DNA from: Geobacillus icigianus
Lineage (GTDB): Bacteria; Bacillota; Bacilli; Bacillales; Anoxybacillaceae
Reading direction: 5' to 3'
Length of the DNA: 64,000 nt
Assembly: GCF_000750005.1 (NCBI RefSeq)
Contig: NZ_JPYA01000201.1
Coordinates: 1-64,000, forward strand
Shown: piece by piece, positions 56,859 to 64,000 of the stretch
Position numbering within the stretch: the first letter of the stretch is position 1
Layout: every line of letters starts with the position of its first letter
Notes under the pieces: generated by a model
Databases searched by the model: none
What the model was told of the DNA's origin: nothing
Seen by the model: only the letters and a program-made list of their open reading frames with translations
Position numbers and translations under genes: made by a program

Positions 56859-57000
56859 CGCGCGTCTCCTTTGCCAATGGTTGCCGACTTCATTGTACCG
56901 ATGACGGCGCTTTCGATGCAAGATGACATTGCGTGAGTTGAGTATATCCTAAATAAATCCATTCCTCTTTTTGAGCGGCTAGCATTGATTCTAACCATCC

Positions 57001-60000
57001 TCAAACGAGCAACTGTTGTTTGCGTTCTACAACATTTAAATATACATTGGGCAAATCATGCAAAACTTCATAAGCCGAAACATACGCAATAGCAGGATGG
57101 CTGTATGCGCATACCAACATCCTTTCTATATTATTTTTTGCGCCAATTAAGCGATTCCCTTTCGATTTGACTTTAATGAGATATTGTCCTCCTTCTTCGA
57201 ATTCCTCGAATTTTTCATTGTGTATTTCTAACATGCGCTTAATAGGGGCTAACACTTTTTGTTGTTCCGTTAATGTTAATGCCTTCAATTCACCTTTAAC
57301 GATATAATCAAGCAACTCTAAGGCGACAAAACGATTTAACTGATGATGATAAAATTGATTGGAGTAATGTCTTAAGCATTTATAGCAAGATGTCTCGCAA
57401 TGGTTTTCGCATTCATGCAAAATTTCCCTTGCCATTTTAATAATATCAGGGAGCATTTCCCCTGCAATGTGTGAATACCCAGCTCCCCCGGATAAAGTAT
57501 CAAACAGATAAACATCGGCTTGATACAGATGTTGTGGACTTTTTGTTTCTAATGGAAGAATGCGATATCCTGACAGCAATTCATTATAATCGATGTCCAA
57601 TACCCGGCTTGCAGCCAATACGAGCGCCTCGCCAATCGTCTTCAAACCGTCATGAACCCATTGATGATTCGGGTGAAAATCGACTTTTTCATCAAAACTC
57701 ATCCGCAATAGTAATAAATCAGAGTTAAATATATTTCCAAGAAACACTTTCATAATACTTCCTCTACAGCGGCTATCCCTTTGACCAAGATGTGTTTTCA
57801 ACCTGTAAGGTACATCATGGGCCAATTTATGTTCACTCTCCCCTGCTGGCCAAATAGCCCCACAGTCCGTGCAGATTTCGAATCCTTCCTGTCGATCCGT
57901 CCCCTTATTCATGACGATAAGCTGTTTGTTCATCTCATTAGCATATTGAAGCCGTTCTGAACCTGAATAAGCCTTCAAACTTAGTTTTTCGCCAGACACA
58001 GGAATAGGTAACTGAGGAGGAACTGCATAGGTGAATTCCTGTTCCCTATCTCCTTCCTTCACCTCCATCCCTTTCTCAGGCGAAAACCCCGTTGGTCGCA
58101 ACAATGGACTGTTTTTCAACTCACCACCACACACTGAACATTTTTTTGTTTGGATTGGATCTAAAGAAACAAATAAGCACGATTCACAATAGGTGATAAC
58201 CGGCAAACTGTCAAGCAACAAATCTTTAGCCGGTTTTAACGGATCGTGTGGATTAGGTACATAAATTCCCCCTATTCGATATGTTTTCTTATCAACAACA
58301 ATTTGTCTTCCTGGCGCATACTCGCTCAACGCTCTGTTTATCTCCAATTGCGGTCGTTGTTTAACGATTATTCTCCCCGTTCTTTCATCCTTTCCTTCAA
58401 TGTAAAAACTGCATAAATCTTGTGGAAATGCATAGGTTGGAAGCAAGCCGTGATTGAACAAAAAATCGAGAAATTTATCGTTCGGATTTACTTCCGCTAT
58501 ATCGTCACCATCGATGGGTTGTATTGTATGTTTGACTTTCTCATAATTCCGTTCCAACTCGCTTACTAGCTCATTACATGCTTCCTTAACAATATACCAT
58601 TTTCGCTCTACCATATCCCCCCCTAATATTCCTTCTGTCGAAACAACCTCATCCGGAATCAAGTCAAAAATCACCGGGTAGTCGCGAAAACGACAGGCTA
58701 TATTGTCATTCAGCCATTTTTTAAACTGCTCATAATTAAAAGGCGGAGTACCTTCAAAAAATGATTTTGTATCACCTAACGAACTGCTGAGAATGCTTGA
58801 CGCAACGGCACTTGTAGAAACGTTTTCATGAAAATACGTTTGAATGAGAAATGCGTTCAAATGCCTTTTGGTGATTTTTTTATTATCAATATAAACAATG
58901 GGTTTGCGAGCCGAACCGCTGATCATTTTTTCAGGCTGTTGAAAATAATAATAATCGTGCGGCCCTCCCTGGGCATAAGTAACTACGGTCGATAAAGCCG
59001 TTCCCCTCCGTCCAGCACGTCCCGCACGCTGCTGGTAGTTCTCCCGTTGTGGCGGAACATTTCGTAGTCCAACGGCAGTCAGTGAACCGATGTCGACGCC
59101 GACTTCCATTGTGGTTGTACAGCTTAAAATATCGACAGGTCCTTCCAAAACATCTAATATGATATCTTGGAACCGCAATTCGTACTCTTCTGTTGTTGCG
59201 ATCGCTATTTTCGCATCCTTTTGCGACAGTTGAGCGGTATGCTCTTCAACGGTGATGTTCGAAATTTTCTCATGGTTTGTCAATATTTTTTGTATAGGTG
59301 AACGCCAAAATCCTTTTTCTGAATCCAACCGTTTACTGTTCACGTTTAATATCTCGATATTTTCCGATAAACAATTCACACATTTGTTTTTTGCTGCAAC
59401 GATATTCATTTCTTTGCAATCATTGCATTTATACCAAGTTGTATAAATGCCGGGAATCAGTTTTAATTTTCTAGGAGATAAATAATATCTCCCTTCCGAC
59501 TCTGTACACAATTTAAACAATGCATCGACAATTTCCTTCTTATGCTCCTCACTTTGAACATAAAGATGAATGATATTCTCTAAGTTTTTCGGTATATAAC
59601 CTTTCTCAACTCCCCAATCATCGCCCCCGAACCCTCTAATCTTCAGCCTCTCATAGAAATGAATGGTTGAATCTATGGCCACTCTATCCAGCATTTCTTG
59701 AATGAACAGCATAGTCAGTACATAAATGTCTTCCTTCGACAATATCTCTTTTAGCTTTCTTTCTACTCTTGCCATTTCTCTTTTAACAGGCTCTACGTAG
59801 CCTGTGGCCGTTGTATAAACCGAGTAGAGTGGATGGCAAAGCTGGCGAAGAAGTTCTGTTTTGAAACGAGGCAGCAGTTCAATGTCGCCGTTTTCAATCA
59901 GCTCCTCATAGTCGCCATCAAAATCCTCGTGTAAAATTTGAACATGATAGGCCAACGATTTTCGATCCTGTCCTTCAAAAAAGTATAATTTATGCTCATC

Positions 60001-62361
60001 AATCACTTGCAACAACGAACAATATAAAGCGCCGCTCAGTTTCGGTTCAATATCTTGATCAATTAATTTTTGAGCCGCCAATAAAATGGACTGTCTAAAA
60101 GAGTCGAGCTCTACTTCATGGGGAATATCCCTAGCAAGACGTGCAGCCTTTTGGCGTCCGTCAGAAAACAGTAGCACTTTCCGTCCCTCATTAGGCAATT
60201 GTTTATTCAGCTTTACAGGAGGTTGCAATAAAAATTGCTCGCGAACTAAATTAGCAAAAGGCTGCTCACCTTTTGTTTTTAAGTCCGTAATCGTTCCCTG
60301 CACTTTTCTCATACAGCACGGACATTGTTGGAATGTAATTGTTTGCTTTTTCTTTTTGTTCTTATTTGTCTCATCATGAGGCAAATACAATTTTAGATAA
60401 CCTTCAGGATCTTCCGGCGGCGACTTCATTAAATATCCCGTCCTGATATCGAGCCATACAGGACGCACCGATCGTTCTCCTTTTTGTATTTTTTCATAGG
60501 GCGGTTCAACCAGCAAGTGAATCTCTGTCAACTCCTCGCCAACAATGCCTTTCCCTTTTTCAGCCCATAAATAGTTGCCGTCCTTTTTCGATATATACCC
60601 TCGAATAAACGCAGTTCCACATTTTCGATGGGTAAGCAATTCGTAGACCCTTGCTTCCTTGCTGCAAGTACATTGTAATTTCGGAGAATCATACATTTTT
60701 CCTAAAATCGAATTGTTTCCTTTTACTCTTTTTTCCTCACATTTCGGATTGGTGCAAACATAAATGCCTGATACACCTTTAAAGAATAAATGGATCCTTA
60801 CCGGCAATAACACTCGCTCTTTATCCTTCGCTGCATTGGCCAACATTAATAAATGGCTCGTCGCTTTTTGGGCCGTTTTCATATCGACACTTGGAAATAC
60901 CAACTTGGCAATATCGCTGAACTTTTTAGCATTTCCGCTTATTTGTTCAATAATTAATTCGAGCGGTCCAAAACCGTCTAAACTTTTATATAGATACGAC
61001 GGCAGCTCATCTAAATTATGTGGGACATCTCCCCATCCAAGCCGCTTTGCTACAGCCTCGAGATTCGACCGCAATGTATCGTACTGATGAATGCGATTGG
61101 TAAACTGCTCGCTGTCTAGCAAGGCGAATGCATAGGCCTCTTCTGTCGTGCCAATTCTTCCGGGCTTTCTTTTTTCTTTCACTCCTTTGATCAACTTAAA
61201 CGAACGTTTTTTCAGTTTACCCGTTAATTGTTCAGCAAATTCAATAGCCGCCGAATCATCATCCTCCGCGCCCAAACTTGCACTCGTTAGAATGCAGCGC
61301 AATCGATCGCGTGTAATTCCTAATCTTGCCTGCAGCCTTCTAATGAGTAGAGCCACCTCTGCACCGCTCGTTCCCCGGTACATATGCGCCTCATCAAGTA
61401 CTAGAATCAATGTGTTCGCTTCATCTTCTGCGAGCCATTGTCTTGTTTTCTCCCAAATTGGCCGCTCAATCGGGCGCATCAACATATACTCCAGCATGGA
61501 ATAGTTCGTTACCAAAATATCCGGGGGAATCGTTTGCATCTCGTGTCTAGTAAACAATTCCCGGTCATCAGGAGAGGTCAAATATCGAGATTTCCAGTCG
61601 CCTCTTTTGCCTGAACAGAAGTTTGTTAAATTTTTCGCTATCCATTTTCCTCTTTTTTTCATTTCCAGCGCTAGCTGTGGCCGATTCTTTTCAATATCCA
61701 AATAATAGTCAATAATCTCCTTCAACTGGTAGTCGTCTTTTTCCTTTGTCCGCTCTCCCGGGTAAGGTGTTCTTGATGTGTACATACCGAATAATGGATG
61801 ACGACCAAAATGATCTCGAAAGTACTTGGACACTCTCTCATCACCAAAAAGCTGGCGCAATCTTGTGATTTGATCGCTGACTAGCGCATTCATCGGATAA
61901 AGTATTAACGCCCGAACCGCATGTGTTTGAAACTGCTCCCTTCTATTAAATCCTTCATCAATTAATGAGTTTAAAATGGGATGTAAGAATGATTCCGTTT
62001 TACCTGAGCCGGTTCCAGTCGCTACAACTAAATCATGTCCGTCCACTAAAAATGATTCAAGCGCCTCCTGCTGATGGACGTACGGCCTCTTATAAATTCC
62101 TACACTAGGAAATAACTCCGAAAAATAAGTCATTGCTTCTTTGCAATGAGCAGGCAAATTCATCTGCTCGTAGGTAGGCCCCAGCTCATAAACAGGAGTG
62201 GCCTCAATATACGGCTCCTTCGAAATAACCCCTGGTGAATCCAATAACTCTCTACGCTCTAACAGCAAAGAGGGATGACTGATTGGATATTGCGCTTCAA
62301 TATATTCGCGCAATTTTTGATGCAGCCGCGCAGAAACAGAGTTAATGGTAAATTCCATCAT
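57001..62361 (-). CDS. druE: Giant DEAD/DEAH helicase with DUF1998-type zinc region, DruE-like
   Basis: A 1786-residue protein. The N-terminal helicase core has Q motif RPYVHQQEAL (92-101), motif I ATGTGSGKTE (about 114-123), DEAH (323-326) and motif III TSASL (359-363). The second RecA domain, at about residue 1080-1120, has TTTMEVGVDIGS and QQRAGRAGRRG. Several zinc pairs lie between and after (CPCC, WYKCNDC, CESC, CTDCG). The C-terminus has the DUF1998/MZB cluster CENHCETSCYKCLRHYSNQF. Size and layout fit DruE, the hallmark of Druantia anti-phage systems; a DISARM-type DrmA/DrmB fusion is the alternative. It overlaps the upstream gene (ATGATG over TGA). The region is AT-rich compared with its left neighbours. 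Confidence 0.8.
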   Translation of the reverse strand: MMEFTINSVSARLHQKLREYIEAQYPISHPSLLLERRELLDSPGVISKEPYIEATPVYELGPTYEQMNLPAHCKEAMTYFSELFPSVGIYKRPYVHQQEALESFLVDGHDLVVATGTGSGKTESFLHPILNSLIDEGFNRREQFQTHAVRALILYPMNALVSDQITRLRQLFGDERVSKYFRDHFGRHPLFGMYTSRTPYPGERTKEKDDYQLKEIIDYYLDIEKNRPQLALEMKKRGKWIAKNLTNFCSGKRGDWKSRYLTSPDDRELFTRHEMQTIPPDILVTNYSMLEYMLMRPIERPIWEKTRQWLAEDEANTLILVLDEAHMYRGTSGAEVALLIRRLQARLGITRDRLRCILTSASLGAEDDDSAAIEFAEQLTGKLKKRSFKLIKGVKEKRKPGRIGTTEEAYAFALLDSEQFTNRIHQYDTLRSNLEAVAKRLGWGDVPHNLDELPSYLYKSLDGFGPLELIIEQISGNAKKFSDIAKLVFPSVDMKTAQKATSHLLMLANAAKDKERVLLPVRIHLFFKGVSGIYVCTNPKCEEKRVKGNNSILGKMYDSPKLQCTCSKEARVYELLTHRKCGTAFIRGYISKKDGNYLWAEKGKGIVGEELTEIHLLVEPPYEKIQKGERSVRPVWLDIRTGYLMKSPPEDPEGYLKLYLPHDETNKNKKKKQTITFQQCPCCMRKVQGTITDLKTKGEQPFANLVREQFLLQPPVKLNKQLPNEGRKVLLFSDGRQKAARLARDIPHEVELDSFRQSILLAAQKLIDQDIEPKLSGALYCSLLQVIDEHKLYFFEGQDRKSLAYHVQILHEDFDGDYEELIENGDIELLPRFKTELLRQLCHPLYSVYTTATGYVEPVKREMARVERKLKEILSKEDIYVLTMLFIQEMLDRVAIDSTIHFYERLKIRGFGGDDWGVEKGYIPKNLENIIHLYVQSEEHKKEIVDALFKLCTESEGRYYLSPRKLKLIPGIYTTWYKCNDCKEMNIVAAKNKCVNCLSENIEILNVNSKRLDSEKGFWRSPIQKILTNHEKISNITVEEHTAQLSQKDAKIAIATTEEYELRFQDIILDVLEGPVDILSCTTTMEVGVDIGSLTAVGLRNVPPQRENYQQRAGRAGRRGTALSTVVTYAQGGPHDYYYFQQPEKMISGSARKPIVYIDNKKITKRHLNAFLIQTYFHENVSTSAVASSILSSSLGDTKSFFEGTPPFNYEQFKKWLNDNIACRFRDYPVIFDLIPDEVVSTEGILGGDMVERKWYIVKEACNELVSELERNYEKVKHTIQPIDGDDIAEVNPNDKFLDFLFNHGLLPTYAFPQDLCSFYIEGKDERTGRIIVKQRPQLEINRALSEYAPGRQIVVDKKTYRIGGIYVPNPHDPLKPAKDLLLDSLPVITYCESCLFVSLDPIQTKKCSVCGGELKNSPLLRPTGFSPEKGMEVKEGDREQEFTYAVPPQLPIPVSGEKLSLKAYSGSERLQYANEMNKQLIVMNKGTDRQEGFEICTDCGAIWPAGESEHKLAHDVPYRLKTHLGQRDSRCRGSIMKVFLGNIFNSDLLLLRMSFDEKVDFHPNHQWVHDGLKTIGEALVLAASRVLDIDYNELLSGYRILPLETKSPQHLYQADVYLFDTLSGGAGYSHIAGEMLPDIIKMAREILHECENHCETSCYKCLRHYSNQFYHHQLNRFVALELLDYIVKGELKALTLTEQQKVLAPIKRMLEIHNEKFEEFEEGGQYLIKVKSKGNRLIGAKNNIERMLVCAYSHPAIAYVSAYEVLHDLPNVYLNVVERKQQLLV

Positions 62362-63311
62362 TCCATTTCAACTCCTTCCCATCGTATTGAATCCTCACCA
62401 ATCCCCAAACGCCGCAAAATCCAAATAAAATCTGAATAATGCCACAAAGGCACAATCCACTCAACCAGTTTGATAAAAGAAAGGGGAAAACAAAAAAGCA
62501 TCGCCATCTTCTGTTCAAACATAGGAAGCTTTTTGAAAAGGCGGACATAAATAACATCCTCACGAATTTTTGCACACTTTATCGTTGTTTTCACCTGAGC
62601 CTTATACTCTAAGGCATACTTGGCCGTTTCTAAATAATATTCGGGTATCTTGTAATAACGCGCATCCCCCCTCCCCATGTTCTCAACCCAAAAGTAGAGC
62701 GGTTGACTGTTTTTTAATGCATACCTAGCAATATAACAATCAGACTTTGATACAAGATTCATTTGAAATGGGTGCCATTTGCGCCGTTTTTGAGGCAAAA
62801 ATAGTTCTGTTGGTTCATCGCTTAGTTTTACTGGGTTCTGCAATTTGAGCGTTTCGATAAATTCATTTACAGTCGGGGAAGGCATCCATTCGTCAATCAT
62901 CAACGTTGGAACATGACTCCCCTCTTCCATATAGCCGTTGCCGCATCCGTAATATTTGTCGCTCTTTCCTTCAGGGTTGCTAAGCACAACCAAGCTTTTA
63001 GACACGGGAAGTTCGACACAGCGCGGGGGCAACGGCAAATAATATCCATTGGCAAGCTTCAATATTTCCCCTAAACCAGATAACAATTCGAGCAATGACT
63101 GTGCTTCGGTTTGACCTTCTTCTTTCATAACGTTTCGAAGATCTTCAAAAAAACATCCCTTTATCAATCTTTGCAAAGGCGGGATAAGCCGCTGAAAATG
63201 CACCGCGTTCATTTTATAGTCCTCGAACGCATAAAAGTGCACCAAAGAAAGGGCATGACGTTTTATCTGTCTAAACTGTATAATTGTATCCCTCCATGCA
63301 TCTGTCAACAT
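62358..63311 (-). CDS. Unknown protein in the DruE-like operon
   Basis: A 317-residue protein not recognised from sequence. It begins MLTDAWRDTIIQFRQIKRHA. It has a helical N-terminal half (VHFQRLIPPLQRLIKGCFFE, then LLELLSGLGEILKLANGYYL), a middle with PLPPRCVELPVSKSLVVLSN and GCGNGY, and a C-terminal half rich in aromatic residues. No enzyme motif is obvious. ATG 63311 was chosen. It overlaps the helicase start and follows the next gene by 19 bp, so all are one operon. Position suggests DruD of type I or DruG of type II, but this is unproven. Confidence 0.7.
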   Translation of the reverse strand: MLTDAWRDTIIQFRQIKRHALSLVHFYAFEDYKMNAVHFQRLIPPLQRLIKGCFFEDLRNVMKEEGQTEAQSLLELLSGLGEILKLANGYYLPLPPRCVELPVSKSLVVLSNPEGKSDKYYGCGNGYMEEGSHVPTLMIDEWMPSPTVNEFIETLKLQNPVKLSDEPTELFLPQKRRKWHPFQMNLVSKSDCYIARYALKNSQPLYFWVENMGRGDARYYKIPEYYLETAKYALEYKAQVKTTIKCAKIREDVIYVRLFKKLPMFEQKMAMLFCFPLSFIKLVEWIVPLWHYSDFIWILRRLGIGEDSIRWEGVEME

Positions 63312-63330
63312 CTCCCGAGCTCCCCCCTTA

Positions 63331-64000
63331 CTAAATCAAAATATTTTCGCTGTCAAACTCTTCTAAGATCTTTTTTGCGTGCTCACGAGCAATGTACGGC
63401 TCCAGTAGCACCTTGGTGACCCATACAGACACAGCTTCTTCCTCGAGCCGTTCATCCTCTAATAACCGAAACCATTTTTTAAATGCTTCTTTTTGTTTCG
63501 TAAACGACATGACTTCTTGCACAATTTCCACAAAATTATTGAACTCACTGGACTTTTCTTTTAATATCTTAGCTTCTACAAGTAAAGGTACAGGGATGGA
63601 CCCAAAGACTAAACGGTGCGTCCTTCTTAGTAACCGAATATCAGGAGTTGTTATCATTTCATTTGCGCTAATCACAGGCGAAAACGATAGCTTTTGAATG
63701 AACGAATCGGTCAACTCACTTTCTTCTTTTATGCTTATCAAAATCAATTCTGGCAACGACTCATCAATAGACACGCGCCAATGGTCGAGAAACGATTGTA
63801 AATACAATTCAGCAGGCGAATTTTCAATTTGGCATAAATGAAGAGACTTTACACAATCAGGCCGTGTATAATGAGAAAAGCAATTGATCAACGTTTTATT
63901 AGTAAAATTCTTTATATCTGGAAAAACCGTTAGATGATCATTTCCTGAAACCGCCCAGCCGATTGCCTGTGACAGTTCAAAACTAAATTCTCCTTTGACC
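63331..64000 (-). CDS. Unknown protein, 5' end beyond the window
   Basis: The frame is open to the window edge: codons before the apparent TTG start at 63891 read KGEFSFELSQAIGWAVSGND with no stop, so the true start is outside. At least 222 residues are visible. It is a helical, charged protein with Cys/His in INCFSHYTRPDCVKSLHLC, a segment IRLLRRTHRLVFGSIPVPLL, and an ending AREHAKKILEEFDSENILI. It is not recognised. It is the most upstream visible gene of the DruE-like operon. Confidence 0.65.
   Translation of the reverse strand, partial: VKGEFSFELSQAIGWAVSGNDHLTVFPDIKNFTNKTLINCFSHYTRPDCVKSLHLCQIENSPAELYLQSFLDHWRVSIDESLPELILISIKEESELTDSFIQKLSFSPVISANEMITTPDIRLLRRTHRLVFGSIPVPLLVEAKILKEKSSEFNNFVEIVQEVMSFTKQKEAFKKWFRLLEDERLEEEAVSVWVTKVLLEPYIAREHAKKILEEFDSENILI

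Follow-up and report, generated by a model that had tools for sequence, protein, structure and literature searches.

What kind of system is encoded by the large helicase gene near the right edge of the window, and does the operon to which it belongs hold the full gene set of that system? The window, meaning the whole stretch of DNA that was analysed, comprises the first 64,000 of the 81,460 bases of its contig. An earlier note on this DNA had described a 1786-residue DEAD/DEAH helicase with a C-terminal DUF1998-type zinc cluster, had placed two genes upstream that overlap or nearly abut it, and had proposed a Druantia-like locus of a possibly new arrangement. The relevant features are given below; positions beyond 64,000 are contig coordinates.

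57001..62361, minus strand: druE, 1786 aa, SF2 helicase of the type I class (PADLOC PDLC00013 DruE1, Pfam)
57373..57630, minus strand: MZB (MrfA Zn-binding) domain, DruE residues 1578-1663 (PF09369, 42.3 bits, cut-off 24.2)
61384..61395, minus strand: DEAH box, DruE residues 323-326, invariant in 16/16 rows of alignment A2
61996..62019, minus strand: TGTGSGKT, DruE residues 115-122, invariant in 16/16 rows of A2
62358..63311, minus strand: druD, 317 aa (PADLOC PDLC00011 DruD1, 617 bits, residues 1-316 of 317)
63331..64000, minus strand: the 3' third of druC that lies in the window (PADLOC PDLC00007 DruC1, 424 bits)
63331-65313, minus strand: whole druC gene, 660 aa, GTG start (DruC1, 1279 bits, full length)
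65310-66830, minus strand: druB, 506 aa (PADLOC DruB1, 1016 bits)

The description of the helicase was borne out. The open reading frame contains the Pfam domains DEAD (PF00270), Helicase_C (PF00271) and MZB (PF09369), the last of which is the former DUF1998; cysteines C1651, C1655, C1659 and C1662 of the MZB region do not vary among the 16 rows of alignment A2, and TGTGSGKT is the Walker A motif. In the PADLOC search, for which the best 25 of 41 families were listed, the DruE1 profile scored 2264 bits over residues 1-1781 of the protein, versus 700 bits for DruE2, 669 for DruE4, 555 for DruE3, 93 for DpdJ and 54 for DrmA. The margin of DruE1 over the other three DruE classes thus exceeds 1500 bits. 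An SF2 helicase with an MZB domain could also be a repair helicase of the YprA/MrfA type, or the helicase of a DISARM or Dpd system, that stands beside its present neighbours by chance. These proteins do share the superfamily and the MZB domain with DruE, but the DpdJ and DrmA scores are far below that of DruE1 and druD, druC and druB are adjacent, and we attach virtually no probability to this explanation: the PADLOC scores rule out a repair, DISARM or Dpd helicase. The kinship with MrfA/YprA or DrmA/DrmB that the earlier note had named as evidence against its own reading is therefore contradicted by the profile scores, and Druantia genes do lie upstream. Among solved structures, the DruE sequence matched 9wae ('Helicase') and 9tu7 ('DEAD/DEAH box helicase'), and the match to YprA (6znp) was much weaker. 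No NCBIfam model scored above its cut-off with druE, druD or the part of druC within the window. A search of a plasmid collection with DruE returned 161 records, all below 60% identity, 11 of which covered at least 80% of the query; in viral contigs, 34 pattern matches were found and none was confirmed.

The two genes upstream of druE are as close as had been described: druD overlaps druE by 4 bases, and a gap of 19 bases separates the 3' end of druC (63331) from druD. Extending the analysis beyond the window, as the note had advised, provided the rest of druC and revealed druB. The PADLOC models for DruB, DruC and DruD fit the products of the operon over nearly their whole length, so that the proposal of a Druantia-like locus holds and its components are already present in the PADLOC database. 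The genes follow each other with 4-base overlaps or short gaps, and from this spacing and their common direction we infer that druB, druC, druD and druE form one operon. As for the proteins other than the helicase, a CoiA_N domain was found in 39 of 53 DruB rows, and the invariant DruB residues C26, C29, H47 and C56 point to a zinc ribbon of the CoiA_N type. DruC gave coiled-coil matches at profile positions of about 170-330; a Pfam scan of 38 DruC proteins returned scattered single matches, many of them to coiled-coil families. The conserved residues of DruD are scattered along the protein, and sequence searches found no solved relative of it. Neither for DruC nor for DruD did sequence searches find a confident fold or domain, and the DruB, DruC and DruD profiles gave weak or coiled-coil matches only when compared with solved structures. 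The plasmid and phage collections contained no match to DruB.

Druantia type I is said to go back to Doron et al. 2018. According to the available parts of two papers, the type is defined by the five genes DruABCDE (PMC13316683, PMC7251935). DruA (PF14236, DUF4338) is the component that our locus lacks. Firstly, neither the Pfam scans nor the listed PADLOC matches revealed it among the locus proteins that were scanned. Secondly, a PF14236 search of the 206-contig assembly of the window's genome found nothing, as did the 14 controls included in that search; the same search did match 29 of 80 other genomes (23/50 and 6/30), which indicates that the model and the tool work. The remaining 51 genomes of related loci gave no PF14236 match. 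Since four of the five type I genes are matched and the fifth, DruA, is not, we class the locus as a DruA-less variant rather than as a canonical system of five genes. We hold it to be likely that the locus is a chromosomal DruA-less Druantia type I operon, with druB, druC, druD and druE in one direction, located in a defence island of Geobacillus. In the open literature we found no paper stating that type I Druantia occurs without DruA, nor one that deals with both Geobacillus and Druantia; the accessible part of one paper refers to 'incomplete' type I sets in Ralstonia strains, where it does not name the missing gene (PMC7251935).

The operon occupies part of an AT-rich island of about 13 kb, in which all genes are on the minus strand and which lies between brxB and a gene with aromatic-acid-exporter domains (Pfam). 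The note had seen a 7-kb AT-rich stretch; the GC content does fall at 57000, from 0.55-0.58 at 51-57 kb to 0.39-0.44, but low GC extends beyond the right edge of the window as far as roughly contig base 70,000, and is also encountered further to the left (0.42 at 40 kb and 0.38-0.45 at 47-49 kb). Within the island as a whole the GC content is 0.38-0.44, against 0.55-0.62 in the adjoining flanks. Upstream of druB, the contig contains the following features.

66985-67660, minus strand: hsdR remnants, identified by their match to HsdR
67920-69824, minus strand: N6-methylase/specificity fusion, 634 aa (N6_Mtase and Methylase_S domains)
70094-70372, minus strand: nucleotidyltransferase remnant, 92 aa
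70584-71021, minus strand: brxB (Disulph_isomer domain)

We take the Disulph_isomer gene at the border to be brxB/yqiW. It is followed by meaB and then by two large open reading frames, presumably encoding methylmalonyl-CoA mutase. A tRNA search of the contig found none. The remnant at 70094-70372 is of the kind found in repeats that border the island in two other genomes, described below.

Out of 150 genomes, DruD was present in five: the window's genome, three further members of its genus and one genome from a different genus within the family. The island adjoins brxB in all four same-genus genomes (the window's genome, G003, G006 and G013), and the exporter gene is found at its far border in three of them; the contig of G006 breaks off within DruE. 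The fullest version, that of G003, contains a nucleotidyltransferase gene, the fusion, HsdM, HsdS, HsdR, DruB, DruC, DruD, DruE and a second nucleotidyltransferase copy. In both G003 and G006, full-length HsdS and HsdR and the tested part of HsdM adjoin the same DruBCDE. The window's genome is more reduced: the HsdR pieces correspond to residues 651-816 and 932-1003 of the Geobacillus jurassicus protein, the 115-aa open reading frame upstream of druB matches the C-terminal end of HsdR, searches of the island with the G. jurassicus proteins detected neither hsdM nor hsdS, and the downstream nucleotidyltransferase copy was not found either. In G013, HsdM, HsdS and HsdR are all broken, in places other than in the window's genome.

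Such decay might suggest that the Druantia genes are themselves a relic, that is, that the system lost DruA, no longer functions, and is decaying like the hsd genes beside it. The missing hsdM and hsdS, the fragmented hsdR and the absent downstream nucleotidyltransferase copy of the window's genome fit this explanation. However, each of the four island genomes has open frames for DruB, DruC, DruD and the fusion, and the DruE frame is open in the three where the gene is whole, the DruE gene and right border of G006 being cut by the contig end. Furthermore, pairwise dN/dS values against the window's genome are well below 1, being 0.22-0.36 for DruB, 0.15-0.20 for DruC, about 0.20 for DruD, and 0.08-0.11 for DruE (two genomes). 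Together with the wide occurrence of the DruA-less state described below, both in an 8-row Bacillales clade and in the loci of a 38-row clade, this makes a non-functional relic very unlikely. Because DruBCDE is intact where the restriction genes decay, we reject the type I restriction genes as a core part of the system; we regard the restriction remnants and the methylase as neighbours of Druantia within the island. Anoxybacillus pushchinoensis (L009) encodes DruBCDE of 505, 659, 318 and 1785 aa with an HsdR tail.

Direct repeats bound the island in G003 (338 bases aligned, 95% identical) and in G013 (425 bases, 92%), and they carry a truncated nucleotidyltransferase gene (L089:1941-2210 and L090:492-761 in G003; L092 and L093 in G013). 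At four island-free sites (L101, L106, L107 and L131), one repeat copy is present between brxB and the exporter gene, and at two others (L126 and L130) the gap is filled by 12-17 kb of other genes, which in L130 lie between two repeat copies. The interval from brxB to the exporter gene appears to be a hotspot of integration in this genus. One genome (G001) has a second brxB copy about 33 kb from the first (L127-L129).

How common is a type I operon without DruA? Our survey consisted of the best 80 of at least 569 confirmed matches to the DruE alignment in species-level genomes, and is thus not a random sample. A protein of the DruC cluster was present in 64 of the 80 survey loci, mostly within the gene order B-C-D-E, which recurs throughout the open reading frame maps; the blastp clustering, which links proteins at E < 1e-6, splits DruB (c2, c3 and c19) and DruD (c1, c4 and c8). 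DruA of the relatives was called by PF14236 and by blastp clusters. As cluster c5 it was detected in 26/80 loci, a number that becomes 29/80 when whole genomes are counted; it directly precedes DruB in 12 loci, follows DruE in six (L018, L019, L031, L032, L034 and L036), and is located elsewhere nearby in the remainder. A FastTree phylogeny was built from 78 DruE sequences, those of 77 loci and the window, after dropping three loci whose DruE is cut or split (L010, L056 and L057). The window belongs to an 8-row Bacillales clade with a support of 100, none of whose members has DruA. The loci of a second clade of 38 rows, which are mostly from Bacillota with a few from Planctomycetota and Pseudomonadota, have no DruA, with the provisos that three of them end before DruB and that PF14236 is matched elsewhere in the genome of L074, on a different contig. 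Together, these two clades account for 46 of the 78 rows. DruA within the locus is confined to the third part of the tree, which contains Pseudomonadota, haloarchaea, a few Bacillota and others, and also seven rows without it; these labels being locus-based, the seven include L020, which has PF14236 about 5 kb beyond the locus. The DruA label requires 5 changes on the tree versus a mean of 21 after shuffling; relabelling by genome again gives 5 changes, or 3 when the contig-cut loci L033, L048, L074 and L077 are left out. The root of the tree is arbitrary, and hence the pattern is compatible with a gain of DruA in one part or its loss in two. As two DruE clades do without DruA in their loci, the working core of type I is probably DruBCDE, with DruA being a lineage-specific add-on. 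Since DruA belongs to the published type I set, phage defence by DruBCDE without it is a prediction. In a separate observation, the genome of Alicyclobacillus mengziensis (G158, the source of L017) has four places with identical PF14236 scores and 303-aa frames, which suggests a DUF4338 gene that is mobile independently of Druantia.

These results have a practical side. Searches that require DruA, or that depend on the PADLOC models for DruB and DruC, may return too low a number of type I systems for Bacillota. In the one locus of the 38-row clade examined with these models, L040:4599-8973, PADLOC gave no match for either DruB or DruC although the DruE scored 1885 bits with DruE1; automatic annotation may label such systems incomplete.

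Among the 43 DruA-less loci in which DruB was recognised, 12 were seen to have restriction genes just upstream of it, a count for which 20 of the 80 loci were dropped (DruB or DruE unidentified) and L020 was included among the 43. Two kinds can be distinguished. On the one hand, type I restriction genes occupy this slot in L009 (the tail only), L010, L013 (broken) and L062. On the other hand, a C5 methylase and an endonuclease of the Eco47II or EcoO109I type occupy it in seven loci (L040, L043, L045, L046, L047, L051 and L061), and in an eighth, L067, at a contig edge, only the endonuclease of the pair is seen. In these eight loci, which are all DruA-less members of the 38-row clade, the genes are at most 50 bases from DruB or overlap it; the C5 methylase of L040 is fused to an HTH domain. 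It should be noted that the slot genes were Pfam-checked in L009, L010, L040 and L046 and called by blastp cluster in L013, L043, L045, L047, L051, L061, L062 and L067. No restriction gene was seen in the slot of 17 DruA-bearing loci, where 4 of 12 candidate proteins were Pfam-scanned, compared with 14 of 64 in the DruA-less loci. The restriction label changes 5 times on the DruE tree (L010 is outside it). A ResIII-type helicase with further nuclease-like domains is encoded near druB in L011, L015 and others. By cluster, restriction genes are also present downstream of DruE in L042, L047, L063 and L072, and a good part of the slot pattern may therefore be the ordinary company of a defence island. 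The Eco47II and EcoO109I enzyme families cut GGNCC-type sites; if both do so here, the same mark would be linked to Druantia twice.

The methylase/specificity fusion in the island of the window's genome adds to this picture. Its best PADLOC match, with the best 25 of 113 families listed, is a type I methyltransferase, and it is about 30% identical to HsdM of G. jurassicus. Methylases fused to a specificity domain are also encoded in L148, L149 and L150, each time in addition to the type I restriction genes next to them. By kinship, the fusion looks like a member of restriction operons. Its survival after the loss of hsdR is the one hint that it may now serve something else, and DruA-less Druantia may be connected with DNA methylation. 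It could then be that the fusion marks host sites and that DruBCDE attacks unmarked DNA, in a manner similar to restriction-modification. Several observations are in line with this. The frame of the fusion has been kept open in the four island genomes, with pairwise dN/dS values of 0.18-0.26 against the window's genome, and it was retained in the window's genome and in G013, where the adjacent restriction operon has decayed by different lesions. Moreover, of 150 relatives, a 96% orthologue is restricted to the four that have a DruD of 94-100% identity, and in the 38-row clade the C5-methylase/endonuclease pair abuts druB as described. Against it, relatives of 35-39% identity have type I restriction genes adjoining in three of the five loci read (L148, L149 and L150, out of four weaker relatives), the 18 kb read around a 67% relative in G025 contain no Druantia gene, and A. 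pushchinoensis has DruBCDE and no fusion, either in the approximately 10 kb read upstream (L094) or as a genome match at 1e-60 (G028). In addition, a slot restriction gene was seen in 12 of the 43 DruA-less loci, with 14 of the 64 slot proteins scanned by Pfam. We therefore consider a methylation-guarded operon unlikely. Little credence can likewise be given to its broader form, in which the DruA-less type I systems of Bacillota would be a separate subtype that distinguishes self from non-self by a linked methyltransferase guarding DruBCDE; this enzyme would be the type I-like fusion in Geobacillus, or the C5 methylase with its restriction enzyme in the Clostridia-type clade.

Returning to the DruA-less type I operon, its components suggest how it might work. 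DruE would be an ATP-driven motor that translocates along DNA and unwinds it, and DruB with its CoiA-type zinc ribbon, DruC with its coiled coil, and DruD would constitute the part responsible for sensing or loading, roles that are guesses. During infection, DruBCD would then guide DruE to intermediates of phage DNA. In the available part of the source, an inactivated C-terminal Vsr-type nuclease is predicted for the DruE of types I and II (PMC12458937). Given this prediction for type I, phage DNA would be expected to be damaged through unwinding, through a partner or by host nucleases. According to the accessible portion of a review, site-specific methylation promoted by a phage protein serves to evade type I Druantia (PMC12904381).

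How does the locus compare with known systems? It differs from DISARM and Dpd in the low DrmA and DpdJ scores of its helicase and in its neighbours. With type I restriction-modification (HsdMSR) it has in common the HsdR remnants and the methylase/specificity protein directly upstream, but in the window's island hsdR is broken, and neither hsdM nor hsdS was found with the G. jurassicus proteins. According to the parts of the sources available, type II consists of DruMFGE (PMC13316683) and type IV of DruE-DruF-DruL (PMC8565338); the locus shares a DruE helicase with both, whereas its DruE scores only 700 and 669 bits with DruE2 and DruE4, respectively, and DruF, DruG, DruL and DruM were absent from the PADLOC matches listed for the locus proteins. 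Type III (DruH-DruE), which has been the subject of mechanistic studies, also has a DruE helicase, there with PLD nuclease domains (PMC12458937, PMC13192584, as far as the available text goes). In contrast, our DruE reaches at most 555 bits with DruE3, and no DruH was among the PADLOC matches listed for the locus proteins. As in type I, a helicase of the DruE1 class comes after DruB, DruC and DruD, with gene order and orientation unchanged; unlike in type I, no DruA was detected in the operon or the assembly. The earlier note's suspicion of a new arrangement is thus partly borne out, but the arrangement is common to many Bacillota and the subtype is type I. The locus is a DruA-less relative of Druantia type I rather than a system of a new kind.
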